Positions 13,011-37,573 of a stretch of DNA of 64,000 nt are shown piece by piece. Location: NCBI RefSeq assembly GCF_900129785.1, contig NZ_FSRC01000001.1, positions 2,604,001-2,668,000 of the forward strand, given 5' to 3'. Each line of letters begins with the position of its first letter. Position 1 is the stretch's first letter. The translations under genes and the position numbers were made by a program. The DNA comes from Algoriphagus halophilus. GTDB taxonomy: Bacteria > Bacteroidota > Bacteroidia > Cytophagales > Cyclobacteriaceae. Below the pieces are notes generated by a model. That model did not search any database, had not been told where the DNA came from, and saw only the letters and a list, made by a program, of their open reading frames with translations.

Positions 13011-14399
13011 ATGAGTGAGCAAAAAATTGGTAAAATTCTCATTATTGATGACAATGAAGACCTACTAAAAGCTGCCAAGATTTTTCTAAAAAGACATTTT
13101 GCGCAAGTAGATACTGAAACCAACCCTGACCTACTTCCTATTTTGACTCACAACGAGCAATATGATGTGATCATGCTGGACATGAACTTTACTAAAGATG
13201 TGAGTTCAGGACAGGAAGGTTTTTATTGGCTTGACCGGATCCTGGAGCTAGATCCTTCCGCTGTGGTGGTCTTGATTACTGCTTATGGAGATGTCAACCT
13301 TGCTGTAAGAGCTATCAAGGAGGGTGCTACTGATTTTGTCTTGAAGCCATGGGAAAATGAACGCTTATTGGCCACGTTGAACTCTGCCCTGAAACTAAGG
13401 CAGAAAAAACTGGAGGTAGATTTACTGAAAGACCAGAAGCAAACACTTCAGGCGGACATGGACCGCAAGTTCAGCGAAATCATCGGTCAAAGTGCGGTCA
13501 TGCAAAAAGTCTATGAAACCATAGAGAGGGTAGCTTCAACCGATGCCAATGTTTTGATCTTAGGCGAAAACGGGACAGGAAAAGAATTGATCGCCAGAGC
13601 GATCCATAGACATAGTAGAAGAAATAAAGAGGCTTTTGTAGGAGTGGATCTTGGATCCATCACTCAATCACTATTTGAATCCGAATTGTTCGGTCATAAA
13701 AAAGGGTCCTTTACGGATGCCAAAGAAGATAGGGCTGGAAGGTTTGAACAAGCACATAAAGGCACCCTCTTTTTGGATGAAATCGGAAACTTACCTCTTC
13801 CACTTCAAGCTAAATTATTAGCAGCATTACAAAATCGGCAGGTTACCCGTGTGGGAGCAAACCGTGCCATTGATGTCAACATCCGGTTGATTTCAGCGAC
13901 CAATATGCCGATCCACAACATGGTATATGATAATAGTTTCCGACAAGATTTATTATACCGGATCAATACGATTGAAATCCAGCTTCCTCCGTTACGGGAA
14001 CGAGATGACGATATCATGTTGCTGGCCAATCACTTTATCGCTTTCTATGCCAAGAAATACAATAAGGATGTCAGAAAAGCTTCAGAACCTTTGATCAAAC
14101 GAATGATGAAGTACCATTGGCCTGGAAACATCCGGGAACTGCAACATAGTATTGAAAGGGCAGTAATTATGAGTAATCATAATGTGCTTCAGCCAGAAGA
14201 TCTCTTCCTTCAAAAAATGCAGCAACCGGAAAGCAAGGATGAATCGGTGAGTTTAGAGCACTTAAATATTGAAGACGTAGAACGGATTTTGATTCGTAAA
14301 GCCCTTCAGAAACATAACGGACATATCACTAGGGCCGCTGAGGAATTAGGATTGACCCGCTCCTCACTTTATCGCAGACTGGAAAAATATGGTTTATAA
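13011..14399 (+). CDS. NtrC-family sigma-54-dependent response regulator
   Basis: The 462-residue protein has a receiver domain with acidic pocket D13/D14, phospho-acceptor D57 and K112. It then has an AAA+ domain with Walker A GENGTGKE (185-192), the sigma-54 contact loop as GSFTDA (232-237; the textbook form is GAFTGA), and Walker B FLDEIGN (254-260). A Fis-type helix-turn-helix lies at the C-terminus (ITRAAEELGLTRSSLYRRL, about 438-456). It should open sigma-54 promoters when phosphorylated by the kinase encoded next, whose gene overlaps its 3' end by 11 nt. The likely target is the divergent export operon, whose upstream region has matching sites. Confidence 0.94.
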   Translation: MSEQKIGKILIIDDNEDLLKAAKIFLKRHFAQVDTETNPDLLPILTHNEQYDVIMLDMNFTKDVSSGQEGFYWLDRILELDPSAVVVLITAYGDVNLAVRAIKEGATDFVLKPWENERLLATLNSALKLRQKKLEVDLLKDQKQTLQADMDRKFSEIIGQSAVMQKVYETIERVASTDANVLILGENGTGKELIARAIHRHSRRNKEAFVGVDLGSITQSLFESELFGHKKGSFTDAKEDRAGRFEQAHKGTLFLDEIGNLPLPLQAKLLAALQNRQVTRVGANRAIDVNIRLISATNMPIHNMVYDNSFRQDLLYRINTIEIQLPPLRERDDDIMLLANHFIAFYAKKYNKDVRKASEPLIKRMMKYHWPGNIRELQHSIERAVIMSNHNVLQPEDLFLQKMQQPESKDESVSLEHLNIEDVERILIRKALQKHNGHITRAAEELGLTRSSLYRRLEKYGL

Positions 14400-15741
14400 G
14401 CGGTTTTCGATAGGTGTTGGGTTTAGGATTTTCCTGATTATTTTATGCCTATACCTAGGTTTATGGCTTTATTATAGGCAAGAGTTATGGCTAGCGCCGG
14501 GTATTCTAGGGCTGATTGCTTTGATCCAAATAGGCGAATTGATTTACTATGTCAACTCGGTCAATCATAAGCTTGCCCGATTTCTAGACTCCATTCGTTT
14601 TACTGATTTCTCCAGCTCCTTTACCTCTGATAGCCAAATGGGAGGTTCCTTTAGAGAAGTGAACATGGCATTCAATGAAGTCATGAACGTCTTCAAACAA
14701 ACCAGGGCTGAAAAGGAGGAACAAATGCTGTTTCTCCAAGTGATTATCCAGCATATCAACTCAGGGATCATCTCTTTCAATTCTGAAGGAAAAATCGGGG
14801 TGATCAATAATGCCGCCAAGCACTTATTACAAATCCCTCAGTTTCGAGATATTTCTGATTTAGGAAAGCTCTCTACTTCTTTATTGGAACAGGTCATGGA
14901 AATGAAACCTGGTCAGCGAATCTCGTATCGGGTCAATCCAAACCTGCACTTGATCATTCAGTCCACCTCTTTGAAAATGGGAGGTCAAAGCTGGACGTTG
15001 CTCTCTCTACAAAACATCAATGCGGAACTTCAATCCAATGAATTGGAAGCTTGGCAAAACCTTACCAAAGTGCTGAGACATGAAATCATGAATTCCATCA
15101 CCCCTATTTCCAGTTTGGTAGATTCGTTGAGTACCATTTTAGAAGAAGACTCCTACGTACAAAAAGAAGGGTTCTTGATCAAGAAAGACGGCTATCAAGA
15201 CATACAGGAAGGATTGGAAACCATCGCCAACCGAAGCAAGGGCCTGGTAGCTTTTGTCAATGCCTATCGGGATTACACCAACATCCCTACTCCTAAAAAG
15301 GAGCTGATTTCTGTTAAATCATTGTTCGAAAATGTCCTGATTTTAATGAAGGAGGACCTGAAAGTATCGGATGTTAAAATTGTGACAGACATCATGCCGG
15401 AGGATCTTGAAATCAATTGTGATCCAGATCTAATTGCGATGATTTTGATTAACCTCGTAAAAAATGCCAATGAGTCTTTACAAAATCAAGAAGAACGAAC
15501 CATTTGGCTGTCTGCCTTATCCCAAGGGGATTTGGGAATTCTGATCCGCGTGGAAGATCATGGCCCAGGAATCATACCGGAGGCCCTCGAACGAATATTT
15601 GTTCCTTTCTATACCACTAAAAAAACGGGATCAGGGATCGGTTTGGCAATTTCAAGGCAAATCATGAACCTTCATAGAGGAAGTTTACAAGTGACTTCCA
15701 TCCCCAATGAAAAGACGGTCTTCACCTTAAATTTCAGATAA
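14389..15741 (+). CDS. Membrane-bound sensor histidine kinase, partner of the NtrC-type regulator
   Basis: Two N-terminal membrane helices (about 10-28 and 34-52) are separated by only a few residues, so there is almost no periplasmic sensor and the stimulus is probably sensed in or below the membrane. A HAMP-like linker and a PAS-like region (about 108-210) follow. The phospho-acceptor H231 (LRHEIMNSITP) starts the dimerisation domain, and the ATPase domain shows NLVKNANES, EDHGPGI and GSGIGLAIS. The gene overlaps the regulator gene by 11 nt, so the two are translationally linked. It ends back to back with the convergent gene at 15742. Confidence 0.92.
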   Translation: MVYKRFSIGVGFRIFLIILCLYLGLWLYYRQELWLAPGILGLIALIQIGELIYYVNSVNHKLARFLDSIRFTDFSSSFTSDSQMGGSFREVNMAFNEVMNVFKQTRAEKEEQMLFLQVIIQHINSGIISFNSEGKIGVINNAAKHLLQIPQFRDISDLGKLSTSLLEQVMEMKPGQRISYRVNPNLHLIIQSTSLKMGGQSWTLLSLQNINAELQSNELEAWQNLTKVLRHEIMNSITPISSLVDSLSTILEEDSYVQKEGFLIKKDGYQDIQEGLETIANRSKGLVAFVNAYRDYTNIPTPKKELISVKSLFENVLILMKEDLKVSDVKIVTDIMPEDLEINCDPDLIAMILINLVKNANESLQNQEERTIWLSALSQGDLGILIRVEDHGPGIIPEALERIFVPFYTTKKTGSGIGLAISRQIMNLHRGSLQVTSIPNEKTVFTLNFR

Positions 15742-28445: not shown

Positions 28446-29795
28446 TCACTTAAAAGGCCTCCAATTCAACATGCCGTTGACATGGATCATTTCCACTTTA
28501 TTGTAGCGTAATTTCGGGCTAAGGTCCCTATTCCCCATGGCTTCCTTATTCATGATGATCAAATGAAAATCAATGGCTTTATAGGATTGGGGCACATATT
28601 TAAGACCTAAATTTACTTGTCGGTAGGAAGGAAAACCGTATTTGTTGGCTTGAGGATCTGTATAATCCGGCAACCAATGAAGTCCGAAATGCAAATATGG
28701 CTTAAGACCTGTATCCCCTATTTGATAATCCACATAAGCTACCAAGGCATCCATTCCTCCAAATCCTTCATTCCGCTCTCTAGGAATAAAGGTATACCAA
28801 GCATCTTTCCCCCACTCTCTAGGGCTTAGCCATCTCCCTTTGCCATCCAAGTGAGAATAACTCAAACTCATGGACCAGTTTTTTACAGCATAACCAGCCT
28901 TTGCCGACACTACCCAATTGGTATCTTCAGGGTCTTTGTATTGAAATATGGGATTGATATTACCTCCATCCCCTATCCCATTTTGAAATCCAAACTGAAT
29001 TCCTGAAAACCACTTGCCATGAGGTTGCTCCGGCCAATTTTTCTCCAATGATGCCCAAAGGGTGTTGGATATATTCTGCACCAACGTTTCTGAAACACTT
29101 ATTTTTCCAAACTTTTCGGTTTGATGGGAAAACTCCAAGATCCCTATCCAATCACTATTGGTATTCCCTGCATACTGAGACGGTTCTCCATTAATAGCTC
29201 TACCAACAGGAAATACTCCAATAGACTCCCCAACCCCAAGCCATTCAGAAGTTCCCCTCACTCCCATTTTACTGATTGCCCATAAACCGAATTCCCATTT
29301 TGGACTTGGTGCATACCAAGCATGGAGTCCCTCTATGGCTGTGGGAGCAAGTCTTCCATCCTGGGCATTGACCCAATCGGTATTGATCCCCATTCTACCC
29401 ACTTTTGCACCCCACTTTTCTTGGGTGTAGGATATAGAAAGAGTCTCCAATTTTCCGAAAAACTTATCTTCTGGGTGGAGCAAATCAAATAATCCCACTT
29501 CATAACGATTCCCAAGCCCGGAAAGGGGATCCGGACTCGTGAGATCGGAACTCCATAGATTTCCGTAAAACCGATAACCCACATGGAAGTTTATATGATC
29601 TGCAAAAGCCAGATTCGCCCCTAGGTTCAAGCTTGAACCCAGGGCAAAGTCATTTTTAAAGTCTTTTGGATAGCTGGTACTCATCCAAAACATTCGGAAA
29701 TGGACATCCGGTACTACTTTTAGCTGACGCTCTGATTGTTGAGCAATAGCTTGAAAAGATAGCACCAGGAATAATCCTAGTAGTATCTTTTTCAT
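28446..29795 (-). CDS. Outer-membrane porin-like beta-barrel (paired with tsdA)
   Basis: The 449-residue protein has a signal peptide (residues 1-18, ending AIAQ) and alternating beta-strand pattern throughout, ending in a strand with terminal WRPFK. Conserved blocks include GRMGINTDWVNAQDGRL (about 137-153), FPVGRAINGE and SPREWGKDAWYTFIPRER. The same blocks occur in the 468-residue paralogue at 34175-35581, for example FYPTGRNPTGEE and FPREWGREQFFASLPRER. OprD-like porin is the closest description I can give. The start overlaps the tsdA stop by 4 nt, so the channel is translationally coupled to a thiosulfate-oxidising cytochrome. Confidence 0.78.
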   Translation of the reverse strand: MKKILLGLFLVLSFQAIAQQSERQLKVVPDVHFRMFWMSTSYPKDFKNDFALGSSLNLGANLAFADHINFHVGYRFYGNLWSSDLTSPDPLSGLGNRYEVGLFDLLHPEDKFFGKLETLSISYTQEKWGAKVGRMGINTDWVNAQDGRLAPTAIEGLHAWYAPSPKWEFGLWAISKMGVRGTSEWLGVGESIGVFPVGRAINGEPSQYAGNTNSDWIGILEFSHQTEKFGKISVSETLVQNISNTLWASLEKNWPEQPHGKWFSGIQFGFQNGIGDGGNINPIFQYKDPEDTNWVVSAKAGYAVKNWSMSLSYSHLDGKGRWLSPREWGKDAWYTFIPRERNEGFGGMDALVAYVDYQIGDTGLKPYLHFGLHWLPDYTDPQANKYGFPSYRQVNLGLKYVPQSYKAIDFHLIIMNKEAMGNRDLSPKLRYNKVEMIHVNGMLNWRPFK

Positions 29796-30847
29796 TTTAG
29801 TTTTGCTATCGCTTCTTTGATAGGTTTGAAAGGACCAAACTTATGTTGCTCCTCTGAAAATTCATCTGCATAAGGACCAAATGGATGATCCATTGGCTTT
29901 TTACTGATATCTGGCCAATCATTAGGAAAATCTCTGGTAGGTCGATCAAGGCTGTTTACATAGGCTGCCACATCCCAGGCTTCCTCGTCAGATAGCATTG
30001 GATTTTCATAAGTAGCCCCAAAAGGCATATTGGCTTTGACATATCCGGCAAATCTTGACATTCTAAATAGACCGGCTTTCTGGTTGTAGCTATGCTCTCC
30101 CCAAAGTGGAGGGTAAGTGTAACCGGTCCCGTCTGCTTTTGCCAAGCCTTGTCCATCCGCCATATGACAGGCAACACATTGTCTATCATACACAAGTTTT
30201 CCTTTTACCGGATCGGCAGCTCTATCCAACAGTGGCACCTCATAAATCCCTGCTCCTACCGGTTTTTCTCCTTTTGGAACATCCTGACCTAGCCAATTCA
30301 TATAGGCAACCATGGCTTTCATTTCTTTGCTGTCCCTAGGCAAGACACCTCCATTCAAGCTTCTTTGGAAACAGCCATTGATTCGCATCTCAATATCTTC
30401 AGAAGTACCAGATCGACCTCTTACTTTTGGATAAGTACTTGCAGCAGCTGAATAATTATTTCCCAAGGGAACGGTACCTGCCTGAAGATGGCAATTCTGG
30501 CAATTCAACCCATTGGATATCTTTTTGACCTTTCCGTTTGGCCCCAAATATTCAGAAGTATTGGCAATCAATTCTCTACCATACTTGATTTCATCGGCAT
30601 TGGGTTCCGTATCTACACTTGCCCAATCAGGCGCTTGCCACATACCCGAAGGATCCATCAATGCCTTAGAAACAGGTGTATTCACTACTTGGGCTACTAC
30701 AGGCTGCTCTTTAAAAGCCGGTAGATTAACCCCCGAGTAGGACAAATAAATTACAAATCCGATTACGCCTACTAATAAACTGGCCAATACCAATAAACTT
30801 AGTACCAGCGTAATCAATTGCAGAAATGGTTTTCCGATCTCTTTCAT
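29792..30847 (-). CDS. tsdA: Dihaem cytochrome c, TsdA-type thiosulfate dehydrogenase
   Basis: TsdA joins two thiosulfates to tetrathionate in the periplasm. The 351-residue protein has one N-terminal membrane helix (about 10-36). The haem 1 site is CQNCH (116-120), the sequence NGCFQRSLNG follows with Cys159 at the place of the unusual axial Cys ligand of TsdA, and the haem 2 site is CVACH (224-228), with KANMPFG (Met274) a likely axial Met. The Cys-ligand block makes TsdA more likely than a generic dihaem cytochrome. The direction of reaction (oxidation or tetrathionate reduction) is not readable. The downstream porin overlaps by 4 nt, and a Crp/Fnr-type site lies 48-63 bp upstream. Confidence 0.85.
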   Translation of the reverse strand: MKEIGKPFLQLITLVLSLLVLASLLVGVIGFVIYLSYSGVNLPAFKEQPVVAQVVNTPVSKALMDPSGMWQAPDWASVDTEPNADEIKYGRELIANTSEYLGPNGKVKKISNGLNCQNCHLQAGTVPLGNNYSAAASTYPKVRGRSGTSEDIEMRINGCFQRSLNGGVLPRDSKEMKAMVAYMNWLGQDVPKGEKPVGAGIYEVPLLDRAADPVKGKLVYDRQCVACHMADGQGLAKADGTGYTYPPLWGEHSYNQKAGLFRMSRFAGYVKANMPFGATYENPMLSDEEAWDVAAYVNSLDRPTRDFPNDWPDISKKPMDHPFGPYADEFSEEQHKFGPFKPIKEAIAKLK

Positions 30848-30864: not shown

Positions 30865-30910
30865 CAAAAATGGCTCAAAGAATGGCTATAATGCTGTGAC
30901 AAGAATCACA
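30865..30910 (-). promoter_or_regulatory. tsdA promoter region with a Crp/Fnr-type site
   Basis: TGTGA-N6-TCACA is perfect at 30895-30910 (minus strand reads TGTGATTCTTGTCACA), centred 55 bp before the ATG. A near-consensus -7 box, CATTTTTG against TAnnTTTG, lies at 30865-30872, 34 bp from the site centre. This fits activator-dependent transcription with the site replacing the -33 box. Confidence 0.65.
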
Positions 30911-30931
30911 TCTGGCTTGACATATTGTAAT

Positions 30932-31648
30932 TTAATAGGCTTCTGCTAAAAATACGAGTTTAGCCCCCACTAATCCTTGAAAAATAAAACGATCTTCTTT
31001 TTGGTAGAGATTAATTTCCACCACCTCTCCCAACATGCATTCTGCCTGAAAATTGATTAAAAATTTAGCTTTCTCAATGTTCCTTTCTTTCAGGATATTT
31101 TCTACCCATAGAATGTAGCTGGTATTATTCACATGATCGTTTAAGTCTAAATCCGAATACCTTACCATCAGCTTTTCACTGGCAATCAAGTCTCCTTCCA
31201 CTTTCACCTTCGCTGCTTGCCAATCCGGTTTCTCCAATGGATCAAATAGCTGGGATGGCAATACCTGCTCAGGTCTCATAGGTCTTTTGGACTCCATGTT
31301 CAACAAAAGATAAGAGGTCATGCAAAGTGCGAGGATATTATCTTCCTCATCAGTCATCATAAACTCCCTGAAAGCAAACAATTTCTCTACACCTCTCCCG
31401 GCAGTATAAACTTTCACATGATCGCCCCAAGAGGGCAAATTAAAACAATGAAAATCCATTCTTGACAATACCCACATTTGACCATTTTCCATCAAATTCC
31501 TCCCAAAATCCGCAGAATCAGCATGCCCCCAAGAACTTTCCTGGAATAAGTCTGCCACACAACTCAATCTGATTTTCCCCGAAGGATGAACTTGAAACGA
31601 GCCGATTTCAAAGTCTTTTTCGTACTGAAAGGTAGAAGCATGACTCAT
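30932..31648 (-). CDS. Acyl-ACP thioesterase
   Basis: The 238-residue protein is built of two hot-dog folds. It probably releases fatty acids from acyl carrier protein in the cytoplasm. Landmarks are the N-terminal hot-dog (FEIGSFQVHPSGKIRL, then QMWVLSRMDF) and the second fold with YSDLDLNDHVNNTSYILWVEN (about 173-193), the FatA/FatB-like catalytic Asn/His block. It overlaps the upstream MFS gene by 4 nt (ATGA), so the pair is translationally coupled. The pair sits inside the sulfur cluster but has no visible sulfur role. Confidence 0.87.
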   Translation of the reverse strand: MSHASTFQYEKDFEIGSFQVHPSGKIRLSCVADLFQESSWGHADSADFGRNLMENGQMWVLSRMDFHCFNLPSWGDHVKVYTAGRGVEKLFAFREFMMTDEEDNILALCMTSYLLLNMESKRPMRPEQVLPSQLFDPLEKPDWQAAKVKVEGDLIASEKLMVRYSDLDLNDHVNNTSYILWVENILKERNIEKAKFLINFQAECMLGEVVEINLYQKEDRFIFQGLVGAKLVFLAEAY

Positions 31649-32817
31649 GAAACAGAAGAGGGTTTAACTTTTTGCGGAATAAGAAATACAGCTTTACGGA
31701 AACTTGAAAGCAAGGTGATCCCCAAGGCAGCTACCGCTACCATGGCGAAAGAGGTTTTCAAATTAAAGAGATCAGCAATGAATCCAATCAAAGGAGGTCC
31801 TAACAAAAACCCGAAAAATGAAATGGTAGATACCAAAGCCAAAGCCACGCTTGGCGCGTATAATTTAGATCTCCCAGCTATGCTATAGGAAAGAGGGATA
31901 ATAGATGCCACTCCTAATCCAACCAATAAAAATCCTACAGTAGCCACCGTAACTGTGGGGAATACCACCGCTAAGGCTAAGCCTACAAATATCAAAACAC
32001 CACTTACTTGAATGACGGCAACTTTGGTAAATCTCGCTGCAATTTTATCGGTAATAAATCTTCCTGTAGCCATGGTTCCCATAAAGGCTACATATCCTAA
32101 CGCAATTAGTGAAGGGTCAGCATTCACCACTTTTTTGAAATACACGCCACTCCAATCAAACATACATCCTTCGCACATCATGCCCAAAAACGCAATCAAG
32201 CTAATTCTTAATAGCAAAGCATCCGGCTTTTTCAACACCAACCCACCATCTGCAGATGCAGCTTTTTCTTTAATGATGAATCTTTGAGCAACTAGAATAA
32301 TCGTCAAAGAAATCAACATGACCACCCCATAATGCTGGGCTGGACTTAGCCCCAGGTAGATCATTAATGCGCCGATTCCAGCTCCTGTAAATCCCGCCAT
32401 GCTCCATAGACCATGAAAGGAAGCCAGTATATTTTTCCCCATTTGGTCTTCCAAGTTTAATGCTTGAGTATTCAATGAAATGTTCATGGTATTCCCTAAC
32501 ATTCCATACAGAATCAAAACCGGAACAAGTAACCAAATAGCAGGAGCCAATCCAATCAAAGGCAAGGTGAGTGCATAAGCAACCGCGCCGATCATAATGA
32601 CTTTTCTGCTTCCAAATTGATGAACTGCCCAACCCGCAATTGGAAGTCCTATCACTGAACCCAACGGAAGGAACAATAATAAAGTCCCGAGTTGACCTTC
32701 TGAAAGATCAAACCTGGCTTGAATATCAGGTATCCTTGCAGCCCATGAGGCAAAACATAAACCCACAAAAAAGAAAAATGCTCCGAGGGCTACTCGGCGT
32801 TTGGAATAAGAAATCAT
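31645..32817 (-). CDS. MFS transporter
   Basis: The 390-residue inner-membrane protein has about 12 hydrophobic helices. GxxxD/R-type loops of the major facilitator superfamily are visible, for example GWAVHQFGSRKV after helix 2 and the matching GRFITDKIAARF after helix 8. The N-terminus RRVALGAFFFFVGLCFASWAARIP resembles the group of sugar/drug efflux MFS proteins close to FucP/YbjJ-like members. The substrate cannot be told. It is coupled to the acyl-ACP thioesterase downstream through a 4-nt overlap and may export a product of that enzyme, which is speculation. Confidence 0.85.
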   Translation of the reverse strand: MISYSKRRVALGAFFFFVGLCFASWAARIPDIQARFDLSEGQLGTLLLFLPLGSVIGLPIAGWAVHQFGSRKVIMIGAVAYALTLPLIGLAPAIWLLVPVLILYGMLGNTMNISLNTQALNLEDQMGKNILASFHGLWSMAGFTGAGIGALMIYLGLSPAQHYGVVMLISLTIILVAQRFIIKEKAASADGGLVLKKPDALLLRISLIAFLGMMCEGCMFDWSGVYFKKVVNADPSLIALGYVAFMGTMATGRFITDKIAARFTKVAVIQVSGVLIFVGLALAVVFPTVTVATVGFLLVGLGVASIIPLSYSIAGRSKLYAPSVALALVSTISFFGFLLGPPLIGFIADLFNLKTSFAMVAVAALGITLLSSFRKAVFLIPQKVKPSSVS

Positions 32818-32901
32818 AGGTTGGGTATAGATTAATAGGCTCCGAAATTTAGAAAGATTACTCCAATAAGCGGCAAATAACCTCTCCTCAAGCTTAAACT
32901 A

Positions 32902-32934
32902 TTTGGGAAAAGGGGTGTTATTGTGGTAAATTTA
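32902..32934 (+). promoter_or_regulatory. Bacteroidota-type promoter of the 26-residue gene
   Basis: TTTG (32902-32905) and TAAATTTA (32927-32934; consensus TAnnTTTG) are 21 nt apart, the expected spacing. The start site predicted from the -7 box falls at or next to the ATG at 32940, so the message would be leaderless or nearly so. Confidence 0.5.
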
Positions 32935-32939
32935 AGCAC

Positions 32940-33020
32940 ATGGAATTTATCATCGTAGGTGCAATTATCACCACAGCCATCTTGATCATCAGATTCATTA
33001 TCAAAAAAGTATTTGATTAA
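32940..33020 (+). CDS. Predicted 26-residue single-pass membrane peptide
   Basis: An ATG at 32940 opens a 27-codon frame encoding MEFIIVGAIITTAILI followed by RFIIKKVFD. It is almost entirely one hydrophobic helix with a positively charged C-terminal end, so it would insert with its N-terminus outside. It has a matching promoter and a strong terminator immediately after its stop, and occupies the gap between the MFS and YeeE genes on the opposite strand. I do not recognise a family. Promoter plus terminator around so short a frame argue for a real transcript, but the coding status is unproven. Confidence 0.45.
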   Translation: MEFIIVGAIITTAILIIRFIIKKVFD

Positions 33021-33021
33021 A

Positions 33022-33051
33022 AAAGCCAGTTCCCTATCAGAAACTGGCTTT
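33022..33051. terminator. Bidirectional terminator
   Basis: AAAGCCAGTT (33022-33031) and AACTGGCTTT (33042-33051) form a perfect 10-bp stem. On the minus strand a run of six T follows, which serves the YeeE operon. On the plus strand TTTAATTATT follows and serves the small gene. Confidence 0.8.
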
Positions 33052-33075
33052 AATTATTCCATCTAAACCTAATAG

Positions 33076-33564
33076 TTAATTTGGAAGCTTCTTCGCAAAT
33101 TTTCCATATACCCAGGTTCCCGCTATAGCTGAAATCAAGGTTACAAATACAATGGTAAATCCACTTCCTATTTGAGCAAACAATGGTCCTGGACAAGCTC
33201 CGGTAATCGCCCATCCTAAACCAAAGATGAATCCTCCGATAATCTGTCCTTTCCTAAATTCCTTTTTAGGAATATTGACAGTCTCTCCTTTGATCGTCTT
33301 GATGTTGAATCGTTTGATGATCTGGATGGAAATGATCCCGGTAATGATCGCGGAACCAATGACTCCATACATATGGAAAGACTGAAGACGGAACATTTCC
33401 TGAATTCTAAACCAAGAAATGATTTCAGCTTTGACAAACACGATTCCAAACAAAATTCCGACAATCATGTATTTTACTAAGGCTAGGCCTTTTTCAATAT
33501 TCTCTTGAGAGTTTGGAGCATCACATACTGCAGCCCCTTGTATATTTTTTTCTGCTACTTTCAT
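33076..33564 (-). CDS. YeeE/YedE-family half-transporter, DUF6691-like
   Basis: The 162-residue inner-membrane protein has about four helices and the conserved Cys loop GACPGPLFAQIG (about 124-135). YeeE/YedE (TsuA) proteins import thiosulfate through a line of Cys residues. In this lineage the transporter is made as two short proteins, and this is the second half. The first half ends 12 nt upstream, so they are co-translated. A pore for thiosulfate or another sulfane-sulfur compound is the likely joint product. The N-terminal 25 residues are soluble, so the true start may be the Met in LVKYMIVGI, but the longer form is kept. Confidence 0.82.
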   Translation of the reverse strand: MKVAEKNIQGAAVCDAPNSQENIEKGLALVKYMIVGILFGIVFVKAEIISWFRIQEMFRLQSFHMYGVIGSAIITGIISIQIIKRFNIKTIKGETVNIPKKEFRKGQIIGGFIFGLGWAITGACPGPLFAQIGSGFTIVFVTLISAIAGTWVYGKFAKKLPN

Positions 33565-33576
33565 TTTATCATCTAA

Positions 33577-34158
33577 TTAAAATCCCACCAAAGACATCAA
33601 AGGTCCCAACAACAAATGAGTCATCACAAAACCGCCAAGCATAAAGAAAATGGTAGCTACCAAGGATGGCCACTGAAGTGAACTAATTCCCATGATCGCA
33701 TGCCCGGAAGTACATCCTCCTGCATATCGGGTTCCAAAGCCCACTAGGAACCCTCCAATCACGAAGAACAAAAGGCCTTTCGCAGTAAATAAAACGCTCC
33801 AGTCAAAGATGTCAGATGGCATCAGGCCAGAGAAATCCGTGATACCCAAAGCTGTTAAATCAGCTTTTGTCTGATCTGCCAGGATAAAATCATTGGGGTT
33901 TGCCAAGTAATTAGTCGCTATAAAACCACCAATTAACACCCCTAACACAAACAACATGTTCCACATTTCTTTTTTCCAGTTATAGGTAAAGAAAGGGATG
34001 CCTGCAGGTACGCAAATGGCGCAGACATGTCGCAAGGAAGAGGAAATCCCAAAGGTCTTATTTCCAATTAAGAGCAACGTTGGCACTGTAAGGCCAATCA
34101 TTGGGCCCGCTACGTACCAAGGCCAAGGCTGGGTAATCCAGTCGATAAATTGATTCAT
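33577..34158 (-). CDS. YeeE/YedE thiosulfate-transporter-like protein, first half
   Basis: The 193-residue inner-membrane protein has about five helices and the family Cys motif [13 protein letters not shown] (about 146-158), the typical position of the sulfur-relay Cys. [10 protein letters not shown] near residue 45 adds two more Cys in a loop. It should pair with the 162-residue protein encoded 12 nt downstream to form one YeeE-like unit. Its gene starts 16 nt after the porin stop, so porin and transporter halves form one transcript. That places outer- and inner-membrane steps of sulfur-compound uptake together. The substrate is inferred. Confidence 0.85.
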
Positions 34159-34174
34159 TTTTATTCTCGTTTAT

Positions 34175-35581
34175 TTAAAATCTATAGTCTAGTATGAGAT
34201 TGAAATTCATCATTTCAACCCGGTTTATCACATATTCCAAAGGGATTTCCCTTTCAAATAGTTCTTTTTTGGCTACTACCAACAACTGTAAATCAAGTCC
34301 ATGGAAAAACCCTTTAAATCTGTAATCTGCCAATCCTGAGAAATGCAGATAGCTTGGGATTCCATATTTATTAAGTTCTACATGATGGATATCCGGAGTT
34401 TTTACATGTGAGACTCCCAACACCACCTTCATTCTGTCATCTGCCAGCTGTTGTTCAAACTGGGTCATGATGGCATGAGTAGCACCTAATCCTTCGAACC
34501 GCTCCCTTGGAAGGCTCGCAAAGAACTGTTCCCTCCCCCATTCTCTTGGGAATAGAAACCTTCCCCGGTCTGAAAATCCAAGGTAGTTTACCGTCCATTT
34601 ACTATGGGGCCATGACAATCCAGCTCTCATTCCAAATGCAGAGGATTTCTCCCCTGGCAGAATATAAGCCTTGGCAGGATCAGGATTTCCTCCATCTCCT
34701 ATCGCAGCTTGGAACATGGTTTGTACCCCCCAAACCAAATCAGGTCCTTTCACCATGGGCTTCCTGCCTTCTACTTGGGAAAGATTAGTGGCAAACACCC
34801 CCTCCGAAAGATAGCTCCAGGATTTTGCTGTTACCTGTTCATTATCCCATCCAAGCCCTAACACACCAATTCCTTTGGTATGAATATGATGTTGGTAGCT
34901 TTCTTCCTCACCCGTTGGATTTCTTCCAGTAGGATAAAATCCAAAAGATTCATCAATGGGCAACCATTCTAGAGATCCTCTTGAAATCACATGGGTAAAC
35001 CAAGCCCCTTGCACCGTGAAATCACTTTTATTCCAATCTAAGGATAGACCGCTGAACAAATTGGGACGCATCCTATTATCAGAGGCATTAAGCAAAGGAC
35101 TTTCGAAATGATGTCTTCCGAACCAAGCTGAAATGGAAGAAGATTCATAGGAAATGTAAAACTCCTCCAATCGATCCATATCCTTGTGATTTTCGGGATG
35201 ATGAACATCATACAATGGCAGTTCATATCTATTCGGCATTCCTGTCAAAGGATCTAGTTCGGTGATATGGTTTTCAAAATGTCTGAAGACAAAAAAACCA
35301 CTAAAGCCCACTCCTAGTCCTTTCCATCTTGGTGAGAAATAACCGACTCCAGCTCCTGTACCCCAAGTACTGTAATTAGTCAAAGCACCCTGATTGACAG
35401 TTCCCATCATATATGACCTGAGATGAAACTCAAACGATCCAGTTTTCAATAGTTTACCAAACAACTTTTTGTCTGGCTCTTCTTCCATTTCTACCTCTTC
35501 ATACGAGTGCTGGGAATAAACTGATTCAGCCATCACCATGAGAAGAAATAGTAATGCAAATTTGGCGATCATTTTCTGCAT
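34175..35581 (-). CDS. Outer-membrane porin-like beta-barrel (paired with YeeE halves)
   Basis: The 468-residue barrel protein has a signal peptide (about residues 1-23, ending VYSQ) and shares blocks with the porin at 28446-29795: GRHHFESPLLNASDNRM (about 135-151), FYPTGRNP and FPREWGREQFF. It ends with an aromatic residue (ILDYRF), as outer-membrane barrels do. The gene leads straight into the two YeeE genes, so a role as entry channel for thiosulfate or related anions is inferred. A Crp/Fnr-type palindrome lies only 6-21 bp before the ATG, and the Met at residue 4 is an alternative start. Confidence 0.78.
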   Translation of the reverse strand: MQKMIAKFALLFLLMVMAESVYSQHSYEEVEMEEEPDKKLFGKLLKTGSFEFHLRSYMMGTVNQGALTNYSTWGTGAGVGYFSPRWKGLGVGFSGFFVFRHFENHITELDPLTGMPNRYELPLYDVHHPENHKDMDRLEEFYISYESSSISAWFGRHHFESPLLNASDNRMRPNLFSGLSLDWNKSDFTVQGAWFTHVISRGSLEWLPIDESFGFYPTGRNPTGEEESYQHHIHTKGIGVLGLGWDNEQVTAKSWSYLSEGVFATNLSQVEGRKPMVKGPDLVWGVQTMFQAAIGDGGNPDPAKAYILPGEKSSAFGMRAGLSWPHSKWTVNYLGFSDRGRFLFPREWGREQFFASLPRERFEGLGATHAIMTQFEQQLADDRMKVVLGVSHVKTPDIHHVELNKYGIPSYLHFSGLADYRFKGFFHGLDLQLLVVAKKELFEREIPLEYVINRVEMMNFNLILDYRF

Positions 35582-35586
35582 ATAGT

Positions 35587-35602
35587 TGTGACTTTAATCA
35601 CA
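35587..35602 (-). promoter_or_regulatory. Perfect Crp/Fnr-type palindrome before the porin gene
   Basis: The minus strand reads TGTGATTAAAGTCACA, a perfect TGTGA-N6-TCACA. It resembles the sites before tsdA, the cstB-like gene and trx. The site is only 6 bp from the ATG, so it cannot act as an ordinary class II activator site for a promoter that preserves this start. Repression, or a later start, are the alternatives. Confidence 0.6.
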
Positions 35603-35620
35603 TGGAATAAGTTGATACTA

Positions 35621-35650
35621 AAAATGGCAAGTCCTAAGACTCGCCATTTT
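35621..35650 (-). terminator. Hairpin between the cstB-like and porin genes
   Basis: AAAATGGCAAGTC (35621-35633) pairs with GACTCGCCATTTT (35638-35650) except at one position, with loop CTAA. On the minus strand it is followed by a short T-run, so it can terminate or reduce read-through from the cstB-like gene into the porin operon. Confidence 0.7.
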
Positions 35651-35678
35651 GGGAATTAAGCAACTTTTCTCCTAGCAT

Positions 35679-37100
35679 TTAGAGAAGTGTAGTCGGGCAA
35701 ACGTAATCTGTCACCTGAAACTTCTCGGATTCTTTGATGGCCTTAAATCCTCCATCCACATCGATTAAATTATCATATCCTCTCGCTCTCAAAATGGAAT
35801 TAAACACCATTGATCGATATCCGCCAGCACAATGAACGTAGTAAGTTTTATCCTTGTCTACTTTCAACATACTCTCATTGATGTAGTCCAATGGTGCGTT
35901 TTCAGCATCTACTACATGTTCTGATAAGTATTCACTGTTCTTTCTAACATCCAGAATAGTCAATTCAGGATCTTTCTCTTTTCTTTTTGCAAGCTCTTCT
36001 GCAGAAATAGATTCTATTGAATCCAATTCATGTCCAGCTTTTTTCCAGGACTCAATTCCCCCTTCCAAATAGCCTAAAGCATAGTCATAACCTACTCTTG
36101 CTAACCTGGTGATTACTTCTTCTTCTCTACCTTCATCCGCTACCACCAATATCTCTTGTTTCAAGTCGGGAATCATTGCTCCTACCCATACTGCAAAACT
36201 TCCGTCAATTCCGATATTCACAGAGTTAGGCACAAATCCCTTGGCGAAAGTCTGAGGGGCTCTTGTATCCAAGATCAACGCTCCTGTTTCATTTGCAGCA
36301 GCTTCAAATTGCGCAGGTGTCAATGGTTTCACACCTCTTTCCAATACCTCATCAATGCTGTCATATCCTTCGATATTCATCATCACGTTTTGAGGGAAAT
36401 ATGCTGGAGGAGGAGTTAAACCTGTAAGTACTTCTTTGATAAACTCCTCTTTGGTCATTTCCTGAAGCGCATAATTGGTCTTCTTTTGGTTACCAAGGGT
36501 ATCTGAAGTCTCCTTGCTCATGTTTTTTCCACATGCTGAACCTGCTCCGTGTGCCGGATAGACAATCAAATCATCTGGAAGGGGCATGATTTTATTTCTA
36601 AGGGAATCATATAAATGACCTGCCAATTTCTCTTGGGTCAAATCCTTCACTACTTTTTGGGCTAAATCAGGTCTACCTACATCACCGATGAATAAGGTAT
36701 CTCCGGTAAAGATGGCTTCTGGCTTTCCTTCCTCATTGTAAAGTAGGAAACAAGAACTCTCCATCGTATGTCCTGGAGTGTGAATCACTTTCACTTTCAC
36801 CTTACCTATCTGAAATTCCTGACCATCTTCAGCTACGATTGCATCAAATCCCATTTTCATGGTCGTTGGTCCATACACGATAGGCGCACCAGTCTTCGCA
36901 GAAAGATCTTGGTGACCAGACACGAAATCAGCATGAAAGTGTGTTTCAAACACGTACTTGATCTTCGCATTTCTTCTTTCAGCTTTTTCAATATAAGGCT
37001 GAACTTCTCTTAACGGATCAATCACCGCTGCTTCGCCATCTGACTCAATGTAGTAAGCTCCTTGAGCTAAACAGCCGGTATAAATTTGTTCGATTTTCAT
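35679..37100 (-). CDS. CstB-like persulfide dioxygenase with two rhodanese domains
   Basis: The 473-residue fusion starts with a metallo-beta-lactamase-fold persulfide dioxygenase (1-230). H54 (ETHFHADF), H111 (HTPGHT) and D134 (TGDTLF) fit the single-iron site, the usual second-metal His of HxHxDH is Phe59, and Cys190 in HGAGSACGK sits where CstB has its active-site-near Cys. A rhodanese-like domain (about 265-360) lacks a catalytic Cys (VADEGREEE), and the last rhodanese (about 375-470) has Cys424 in CAGGYRS. In CstB this order turns persulfides and sulfite into thiosulfate. It lies 83 nt downstream of trx with its own Crp/Fnr-type promoter. The protein is cytoplasmic. Confidence 0.88.
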   Translation of the reverse strand: MKIEQIYTGCLAQGAYYIESDGEAAVIDPLREVQPYIEKAERRNAKIKYVFETHFHADFVSGHQDLSAKTGAPIVYGPTTMKMGFDAIVAEDGQEFQIGKVKVKVIHTPGHTMESSCFLLYNEEGKPEAIFTGDTLFIGDVGRPDLAQKVVKDLTQEKLAGHLYDSLRNKIMPLPDDLIVYPAHGAGSACGKNMSKETSDTLGNQKKTNYALQEMTKEEFIKEVLTGLTPPPAYFPQNVMMNIEGYDSIDEVLERGVKPLTPAQFEAAANETGALILDTRAPQTFAKGFVPNSVNIGIDGSFAVWVGAMIPDLKQEILVVADEGREEEVITRLARVGYDYALGYLEGGIESWKKAGHELDSIESISAEELAKRKEKDPELTILDVRKNSEYLSEHVVDAENAPLDYINESMLKVDKDKTYYVHCAGGYRSMVFNSILRARGYDNLIDVDGGFKAIKESEKFQVTDYVCPTTLL

Positions 37101-37135
37101 ATGATGTGTTTTTATATTTTCTCTATTCGGATGTT

Positions 37136-37180
37136 CAAATATACCAGTCCAAAAGAACTGTATAGATGACTTTTGTCACA
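37136..37180 (-). promoter_or_regulatory. Promoter of the cstB-like gene with a Crp/Fnr-type site
   Basis: The -7 box TATATTTG (37136-37143) matches TAnnTTTG. The site TGTGACAAAAGTCATC (37165-37180) has one perfect TGTGA half and a degenerate second half, centred exactly 33 bp upstream of the -7 box centre. The predicted leader is about 30 nt. Confidence 0.65.
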
Positions 37181-37183
37181 CTA

Positions 37184-37510
37184 TTATGCTTCTTTTAAAA
37201 TATTGGATTCAATAGTTTGAATCAATTGATGTGCTGGCACCACTCCGGATTGTCTCCAAAGGATTTTCCCTTTTTGGAACAAAATCAACGTAGGAACACC
37301 TCGTACTTGAAATTTGCTCGCTGCCAATGGGTTTTTATCCACATCAACTTTCAATATTTTGACCTTGTCTCCCATTTGTCTGGAAGTATCTTCCAAAATA
37401 GGATGCATCATCTTACAAGGGCCACACCAAGTTGCAGTAAAGTCTACCAACACTGGCTGGTCTCCGTCAATTAATTCCTGAAAGGTTTTAGGTTGTGCGC
37501 TCATGGTCAT
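37184..37510 (-). CDS. Thioredoxin
   Basis: The 108-residue protein has the redox motif WCGPC (Cys29, Cys32), the cis-Pro loop RGVPTL (about 80-85) and the normal thioredoxin length, and there is no signal peptide, so it is cytoplasmic. At the head of the sulfur cluster it could reduce persulfides, release sulfide or recycle rhodanese-bound sulfur rather than serve as the general thioredoxin, which is inference from context. The ATG at 37510 or the second Met at 37504 are both possible. A Bacteroidota -7 box and a Crp/Fnr-like half-site lie upstream. Confidence 0.92.
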   Translation of the reverse strand: MTMSAQPKTFQELIDGDQPVLVDFTATWCGPCKMMHPILEDTSRQMGDKVKILKVDVDKNPLAASKFQVRGVPTLILFQKGKILWRQSGVVPAHQLIQTIESNILKEA

Positions 37511-37528
37511 TTAATTTATTTAACATAA

Positions 37529-37573
37529 CAAAAGTACAGAGTCAATAGGTTCTCTACAGTAATTTTTATCACA
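37529..37573 (-). promoter_or_regulatory. trx promoter with a Crp/Fnr-like half-site
   Basis: The -7 box TACTTTTG (37529-37536) matches TAnnTTTG. TGTGATAAAAATTACT (37558-37573) has a perfect TGTGA half and a weak second half (3 of 5), again centred exactly 33 bp upstream of the -7 box. The predicted leader is about 15 nt. Confidence 0.6.

Follow-up and report, generated by a model that had tools for sequence, protein, structure and literature searches.

What controls the sulfur genes that lie together in this 64,000-nucleotide stretch of the Algoriphagus halophilus genome? The stretch (the window; G000:C1:2604001-2668000 in a genome of 4,976,387 bp, or 4.98 Mb) encodes on its minus strand a thioredoxin, a CstB-like protein, a porin-like protein, two YeeE/YedE half-transporters, and a TsdA/SoxA-like cytochrome c, and four 16-bp sites of the Crp type precede genes of this group. 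A sequence-only reading had taken the sites to mark one regulon under a Crp/Fnr-type regulator encoded elsewhere. Conservation of the sites and their matches in intergenic DNA genome-wide bear this out, and a sulfur regulon with a distant Crp/Fnr regulator is well supported. The sites, their conservation, their spacing, the gene linkage, and the match of the recognition helix were computed directly. Taken as a whole, it is very probable that the sites are operators of a dedicated sulfide and thiosulfate oxidation regulon whose regulator would be the protein encoded at C1:1144648, acting by class II activation, possibly in response to persulfide or polysulfide.

Four Crp-type sites and the genes behind them

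The sites, each with the promoter element that follows it, are:

37558..37573, minus strand: Crp-type site TGTGATAAAAATTACT upstream of trx, centred 55.5 bp ahead of the trx start codon; -7 box TACTTTTG, exact (6/6 letters), 33 bp downstream of the site centre
37165..37180, minus strand: Crp-type site TGTGACAAAAGTCATC upstream of the cstB-like gene; exact -7 box TATATTTG (6/6 letters) 33 bp from the site centre
35587..35602, minus strand: perfect palindrome TGTGATTAAAGTCACA upstream of the porin-like gene; 5/6 box CAAATTTG 34 bp from the site centre, within the called reading frame
30895..30910, minus strand: perfect palindrome TGTGATTCTTGTCACA upstream of the tsdA-like gene; 5/6 box CATTTTTG 34 bp from the site centre

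The genes are:

37184..37510, minus strand: thioredoxin (trx), 108 amino acids (Pfam PF00085; NCBIfam thioredoxin model above cut-off)
35679..37100, minus strand: CstB-like metallo-beta-lactamase and rhodanese protein, 473 amino acids (PF00753; PF00581 in two stretches)
34175..35581, minus strand: porin-like protein, 468 amino acids, named after the sequence-only reading (no Pfam or NCBIfam match)
33577..34158, minus strand: YeeE/YedE half-transporter 1 (Sulf_transp; yedE1; PF04143), a downstream member that lacks its own site
33076..33564, minus strand: YeeE/YedE half-transporter 2 (Sulf_transp / DUF6691; yedE2; PF04143, PF20398)
29792..30847, minus strand: TsdA/SoxA-like cytochrome c (tsdA), 351 amino acids (PF21342, PF00034)

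No NCBIfam model exceeded its cut-off for the CstB-like protein (35679-37100), and none of those listed was named CstB; its domain make-up fits, and we regard it as a candidate persulfide dioxygenase-sulfurtransferase. Relatives of the porin-like gene with 40-63% identity occupy the equivalent place in 16 of 20 loci. Every match to the YeeE/YedE family in the genome falls in the window.

All four 16-mers are present on the minus strand as first written, at 37558, 37165, 35587, and 30895, and those before porin and tsdA are perfect TGTGA-N6-TCACA palindromes. The expectation given for such a palindrome, about 0.06 per 64 kb, is correct under equal base use; genome-wide, there is no enrichment, with 4 copies in 4,976,387 bp, about what equal base use predicts. 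Both intergenic copies are the porin and tsdA sites, directly upstream of sulfur-cluster genes as had been claimed, and the other two (C1:195163 and C4:60827) lie within called frames and were dropped as targets. The trx and cstB-like sites each have 2 mismatches from the perfect palindrome. Sequence alone is insufficient for these two, which gain weight from position and conservation.

A second sulfur locus carries a candidate regulator gene

No gene for a cyclic-nucleotide-monophosphate (cNMP)-binding protein was found in the window; the genome has ten such matches, and the nearest of them is 51 kb past the window end. The regulator had been expected elsewhere, and a candidate, a 218-amino-acid Crp/Fnr protein, was found about 1.5 Mb away (G000:C1:1144648-1145304). 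When the ten proteins were read for an Arg-Glu-x-x-x-Arg recognition motif, only this one had it, in the recognition helix R-E-V-I-S-R. Its gene (crp) has a site 50.5 bp upstream of its own start.

A relaxed pattern, DGTRAYNNNNRTCACH, which covers the variation seen in the sites and is tighter than the two-mismatch pattern (395 places), matches 37 places in the genome, 28 inside called genes and nine intergenic. Six of the nine are at two sulfur loci: at trx, porin, and tsdA in the window, and at sqr, crp, and the tauE/usp intergenic region in a second locus at about 1.13-1.15 Mb, 1.5 Mb from the window. The 37 do not include the cstB-like site, which deviates from the pattern. A weaker further site precedes the rhodanese gene adjoining tauE. 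The genome scan that had been suggested for sulfur, respiration, or redox genes thus returned, as its other intergenic matches, mostly sulfide genes (sqr and tauE) and a crp gene. Pfam backs the identities of tauE and the rhodanese gene. The sqr product scores 238.5 bits against the type III sulfide:quinone reductase model, below the cut-off of 525, and no second match to it was found in the genome at E 1e-10. The label dabA for the open reading frame beside sqr was left unused (0 Pfam hits). Three intergenic matches lie outside the sulfur loci (C1:368466, C2:408769, and C3:491523), the first of them upstream of what we take to be a recombinase-like gene.

Site conservation and gene linkage in relatives

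From the best cstB-like matches, twenty family genomes with non-adjacent ("split") loci were chosen; G128 and G050 among them carry both genes on a single contig, separated by 16-20 kb. A matrix built from the four A. halophilus sites was scored on the 300 bp upstream of orthologues with a threshold of 13. Among usable cases, a site was found upstream of trx (15/17), the cstB-like gene (18/20), porin (12/12), and tsdA (7/7), so the proposed conservation holds. The same matrix gave 3 of 20 for yedE1 and 0 of 20 for yedE2, 23 of 286 for other genes, and 5 of 1120 for shuffled target windows. The pair of genes for a major facilitator superfamily (MFS) protein and a thioesterase, said to lack a site, has none in the window or in relatives (MFS, 0/13; thioesterase, 0/8).

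Pairwise identity of the 16-bp sites is 0.96 for trx, 0.88 for the cstB-like gene, 0.82 for porin, and 0.77 for tsdA; in the flanks, it is 0.27-0.54 over the 30 bp before and 0.30-0.40 over the 20 bp after. Only rows with a site entered this comparison (16, 19, 13, and 8, respectively, A. halophilus included), a choice that favours site identity, but hardly by as much as the difference seen. Most relatives also retain the asymmetric form of the trx and cstB-like sites. At L078 and L079, the two fetched loci that keep sqr, tauE, and the rhodanese gene beside crp, sites lie upstream of all four genes.

Linkage was surveyed in 148 family genomes drawn evenly from the larger group. Relatives of the regulator occur in at least 125 of them (E 1e-30) and the cstB-like protein in at least 136 (E 1e-80). 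The two genes lie within 11 kb on one contig in at least 40 of the 148, a lower bound since these were picked by eye from tables in two batches of 20; in 30 of the linked genomes, they are at most 2.2 kb apart. At locus L115, sqr, crp, tauE, trx, the cstB-like gene, porin, and both yedE genes are contiguous, with sites upstream of tauE, trx, the cstB-like gene, and porin and one between sqr and crp. Separately, 79 named loci, with titles that include Cytophagales, Flavobacteriales, and Saprospiraceae, were chosen on the regulator alone, and 62 of them have cstB-like, tauE, yedE, or sqr genes nearby. Six of these 79, out of 80 named loci in all, are from genomes already fetched; they enter this linkage count and the named-set operator counts below, not the Glu/Val agreement, 53-site, 40/52, or pooled operator counts. 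A peptide-pattern scan of the genome collection for the regulator gave at least 583 matching stretches; it used two patterns, one containing the cysteine motif, and loci L078-L137 were found by whole-protein similarity. The linkage, together with the residue-operator agreement described below, strongly supports the C1:1144648 protein as the regulator.

Nine relatives have a second Crp copy. Examined for a within-genome contrast, none of the nine gave one. Eight (L238-L244 and L246) are of a sister type with a CAIT[M/L]ICS motif, and the ninth (L245) has a Val-type helix without that motif. The sister gene in L238, L239, and L246 is beside genes that resemble those of cytochrome bd oxidase, and in L238 (G130:C8), a TGTGA-type site, GGTGACCAGAATCACC, lies just upstream of it.

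Promoter spacing at the sites

As the sequence-only reading had it, the -7 box is 33 bp from the site centre at trx and the cstB-like gene (6/6) and 34 bp at tsdA (5/6). The activator-type spacing extends to all eight A. halophilus targets (trx, cstB-like, porin, tsdA, sqr, crp, tauE, and rhodanese), each with a box of at least 5/6 letters at 33 or 34 bp, four of them exact, and to distant loci; its meaning at porin is less certain, the start codon being upstream of the box. Such a box is found in 1.6% of cases at a random window position. The usp side of the tauE site has no -7 box at that spacing. Exact TAnnTTTG boxes within 70 bp of relatives' sites are at 33 or 34 bp in 26 of 27 cases. For 53 strict sites in other loci (L098-L217), offset 33 has 41 box counts and offset 34 has 2, where the other offsets average 0.98, and 41 of the 53 sites have a box. 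After repeat genomes and regulators at least 70% identical to that of A. halophilus were dropped, the figure is 40 of 52, a count that also takes in regulators unclassified in the 53-site count.

In Flavobacterium psychrophilum, TAnnTTTG lies at -12 to -5 (passages of PMC9723704), which would put the site centre at -41.5 to -42.5. A site centred near -41.5 is the class II activator position known from CRP work, and the spacing fits a class II activator promoter. In many relatives outside the genus, the porin start codon comes just after the -7 box, and in this genus, it comes before or in the box. The outside cases, with only a few bases between box and start codon, suggest a leaderless or nearly leaderless transcript.

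One recognition residue and one operator base

At the position equivalent to Glu181 of CRP, 65 of 134 regulators have Glu and 69 have Val, and both flanking arginines of the recognition helix are kept in 134 of 134. In CRP, the contact of Glu181 is with the cytosine in base pair four of TGTGA (passages of PMC11253593), and the R-E-V-I-S-R helix of the candidate is like the CRP motif given there. We compared the residue with the fourth base of the operator. With this base left free, strict sites at L058-L137 have G in 36 of 52 half-sites and A in 12 under Glu regulators, and A in 19 of 26 and G in 2 under Val regulators. Half-sites of the named set have G in 4 of 6 for Glu, G in 2 of 2 for a second Glu group, and A in 29, G in 7, and T in 4 of 40 for Val, and a letter-reversed decoy gave no sites in that set. 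Pooled without repeat genomes, the counts are G 40 and A 13 of 58 for Glu and A 48, G 9, T 7, and C 2 of 66 for Val; as T is rare at this base, AT-richness alone is no explanation. The split is less clean when one mismatch is allowed (Glu loci, G 179, A 118, T 50, and C 37; Val loci, A 93, T 30, G 24, and C 15).

By majority at no more than one mismatch, 96 of 133 regulators were informative and 37 uninformative; the residue matches the site base in 92 of the 96 and does not in four (L143, L162, L207, and L216). Mutants of E. coli CRP at Glu181 are reported to show a similar change of specificity. Nature thus offers a case where a single residue of the recognition helix varies together with a single base of the operators throughout a regulon, at a contact known from CRP.

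Fold, cysteines, and signal

The candidate is in the Crp/Fnr superfamily (PF00027, PF00325, and PF13545 above cut-off). The model of its A. pacificus orthologue (L138:9001-9654; 90% identity, the nearest named relative among the matches listed) has a CRP-like fold, with a mean pLDDT (predicted local distance difference test) of 86 and a pTM (predicted template modelling score) of 0.63, and is weak around Cys84/Cys85 (mean pLDDT of 62 for residues 81-90). The protein itself combines the CRP-type TGTGA half-site with the Arg-Glu-x-x-x-Arg helix; in the wider set, Val replaces this Glu in 69 of 134 regulators. It scores 54 bits against the NCBIfam CRP model, whose cut-off is 266. CRP contacts cyclic AMP (cAMP) through Glu72, Arg82, and Ser83; in a phmmer alignment to CRP, these become a gap, Lys, and Pro, and with the contacts not kept, the candidate is probably not a cAMP receptor, that is, CRP proper. 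FNR, with its 4Fe-4S cluster, has an N-terminal cysteine cluster plus a fourth cysteine and reads the half-site TTGAT. The candidate has only Cys78, Cys84, and Cys85 among its 218 residues, and its sites are TGTGAY or TGTAAY with no TTGAT, which argues against an FNR.

The cysteines align with Ile70 (Cys78), Glu77 (Cys84), and Glu78 (Cys85) of CRP, in the former cAMP cassette. The three are retained in 134, 131, and 126 of 134 regulators, respectively, counts that lean upward for L138-L217 since the motif is contained in one fetch pattern. L134 and L136 have another cysteine a few residues on (SFLGATC) and a cstB-like gene within 11 kb.

Because of the cysteines and the target genes, we favour reactive sulfur (persulfide or polysulfide) as the signal, a hypothesis whose chances we regard as about evenly balanced, because the Eubacterium rectale protein PDB 3DV8 shares two of the cysteines and PgRsp of Porphyromonas gingivalis binds heme. 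Of the competing explanations, the one that survives best is that the cysteines sense heme, general redox state, or a metal cluster instead, which we consider distinctly less likely though still a real possibility. PgRsp binds heme and affects the oxidative-stress response, its authors modelled it on 3DV8, and replacement of its Cys76 left the heme spectrum unchanged (passages of PMC6955866). Linkage and sites nonetheless point to sulfide oxidation genes.

Mechanism and alternatives

We infer binding, activation, and signal as follows. A dimer of the regulator would bind TGTGAY-N4-RTCACA centred near -41.5 and, by class II activation, would replace the -33 element at trx, the cstB-like gene, tsdA, sqr, tauE, the rhodanese gene, and crp itself. 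It would bind at porin too, with a less certain output. Persulfide or polysulfide would be sensed by Cys78, Cys84, and Cys85. Regulator and targets form one cluster in many relatives and are split into two loci in this lineage. Sulfide oxidation would be switched on as one unit in this bacterium and, through related sites, in many other Bacteroidota.

Several observations weigh against this explanation. The two imperfect sites, at trx and the cstB-like gene, are by sequence alone not above chance in the window, where near-matches with up to 2 mismatches show no excess (29 observed, 30.2 expected). The crp gene has a site in only 13 of the 20 split-type relatives, and at none of these 13 sites is an exact TAnnTTTG found at 33-34 bp (one is at 46). 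In relatives, exact boxes within 70 bp number only 27 for 71 sites, and the porin box is within the called reading frame in this genus. Seventeen of the 79 named loci have no cstB, tauE, yedE, or sqr gene nearby. The test for independent Glu/Val changes gave no replicates, with one change on the tree and one independent pair, so the change is one event and not independent replication. Three regulators (L134, L136, and L159) are without Cys84, and the cysteines at positions 78 and 84 also occur in 3DV8 and are therefore not peculiar to sulfur clusters.

The right protein could act in the opposite sense, as a repressor relieved by reactive sulfur, which we think unlikely. BigR, a known persulfide regulator of a yeeE-yedE-pdo2 operon, is a repressor (passages of PMC7315123), and the porin site, centred 13 or 22.5 bp from two candidate start codons, is in a place open to one. 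A fixed 33-bp spacing (41 counts against a mean of 0.98), however, is expected for class II activation and unneeded for repression. More improbable still is that another Crp/Fnr paralogue, such as a general cAMP- or oxygen-responsive one, binds the sites, with the sulfur genes a minor portion of a respiration regulon. The genome encodes ten cNMP-binding proteins and the site resembles the E. coli CRP consensus, but the recognition motif singles out the C1:1144648 protein, the two sulfur loci account for six of nine intergenic matches, and the C1:1144648 gene has its own site and lies near the targets in many genomes. That the palindromes are chance or ancestral leftovers in slowly changing intergenic DNA, as shared descent and the lack of a near-match excess in the window might suggest, is next to impossible given site identities of 0.77-0.96 against flanks of 0.27-0.54 and 0.30-0.40 (rows with a site only), only 5 of 1120 shuffled windows, and the fixed 33-bp box spacing in distant loci.

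The C1:1144648 protein compares as follows with known systems. To E. coli CRP, the candidate is similar in the TGTGA-N6-TCACA operator, the R-E-x-x-x-R helix, the fold, and a predicted site position near -41.5, and it differs in lacking the cAMP cassette, with cysteines in that stretch, and in its narrow sulfur regulon. CstR and SqrR are persulfide-responsive regulators of similar genes from other families, including the CsoR type. FisR and BigR control genes for sulfide:quinone reductase, persulfide dioxygenase, TauE, and YeeE/YedE, but they are a sigma-54 activator and an ArsR-type repressor and not of the Crp fold (passages of PMC7315123). The nearest characterised Crp/Fnr relatives found are PgRsp and 3DV8, the latter being the top PDB sequence match of the candidate. 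PgRsp differs in being reported, in passages of PMC6955866, as a heme-binding redox regulator that binds the hmu and bcp promoters, not as a regulator of sulfide oxidation. The candidate is CRP-like at the DNA and FisR/BigR-like in its targets, and it falls outside CRP proper as well as the FisR and BigR families.

Searches of the open-access literature turned up no study of a sulfide oxidation regulator in Bacteroidota; the present analysis provides a named candidate regulator gene, its operators, a promoter geometry, and a cysteine motif. A broader proposal, to which we give slightly less than an even chance, is that in a Crp/Fnr subfamily of Bacteroidota the cyclic-nucleotide cassette became a C-x5-C-C reactive-sulfur switch that activates sulfide oxidation, with the Glu/Val change accompanying a regulon-wide rewriting of operators between TGTGA and TGTAA.

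Neighbouring genes and further sites

One more gene follows tsdA:

28446..29795, minus strand: 449-amino-acid protein, overlapping the tsdA end (no family match)

This gene adjoins tsdA in several relatives and is probably cotranscribed with it. Matrix site matches upstream of it (10/16) were not counted because of a probable cross-match of the query to the porin gene. The gene pair for the MFS protein and the acyl-ACP thioesterase-like protein (window 30932-32817) lies between yedE2 and tsdA in several relatives as well. Three near-matches to the site fall within 62 bases at window 15372-15433, inside the reading frame 14389-15741. The intergenic match at C3:491523-491538 (L254), AGTGATATGTATCACT, is upstream of a gene for a 201-amino-acid lipoprotein-like protein, a possible extra member of the regulon.

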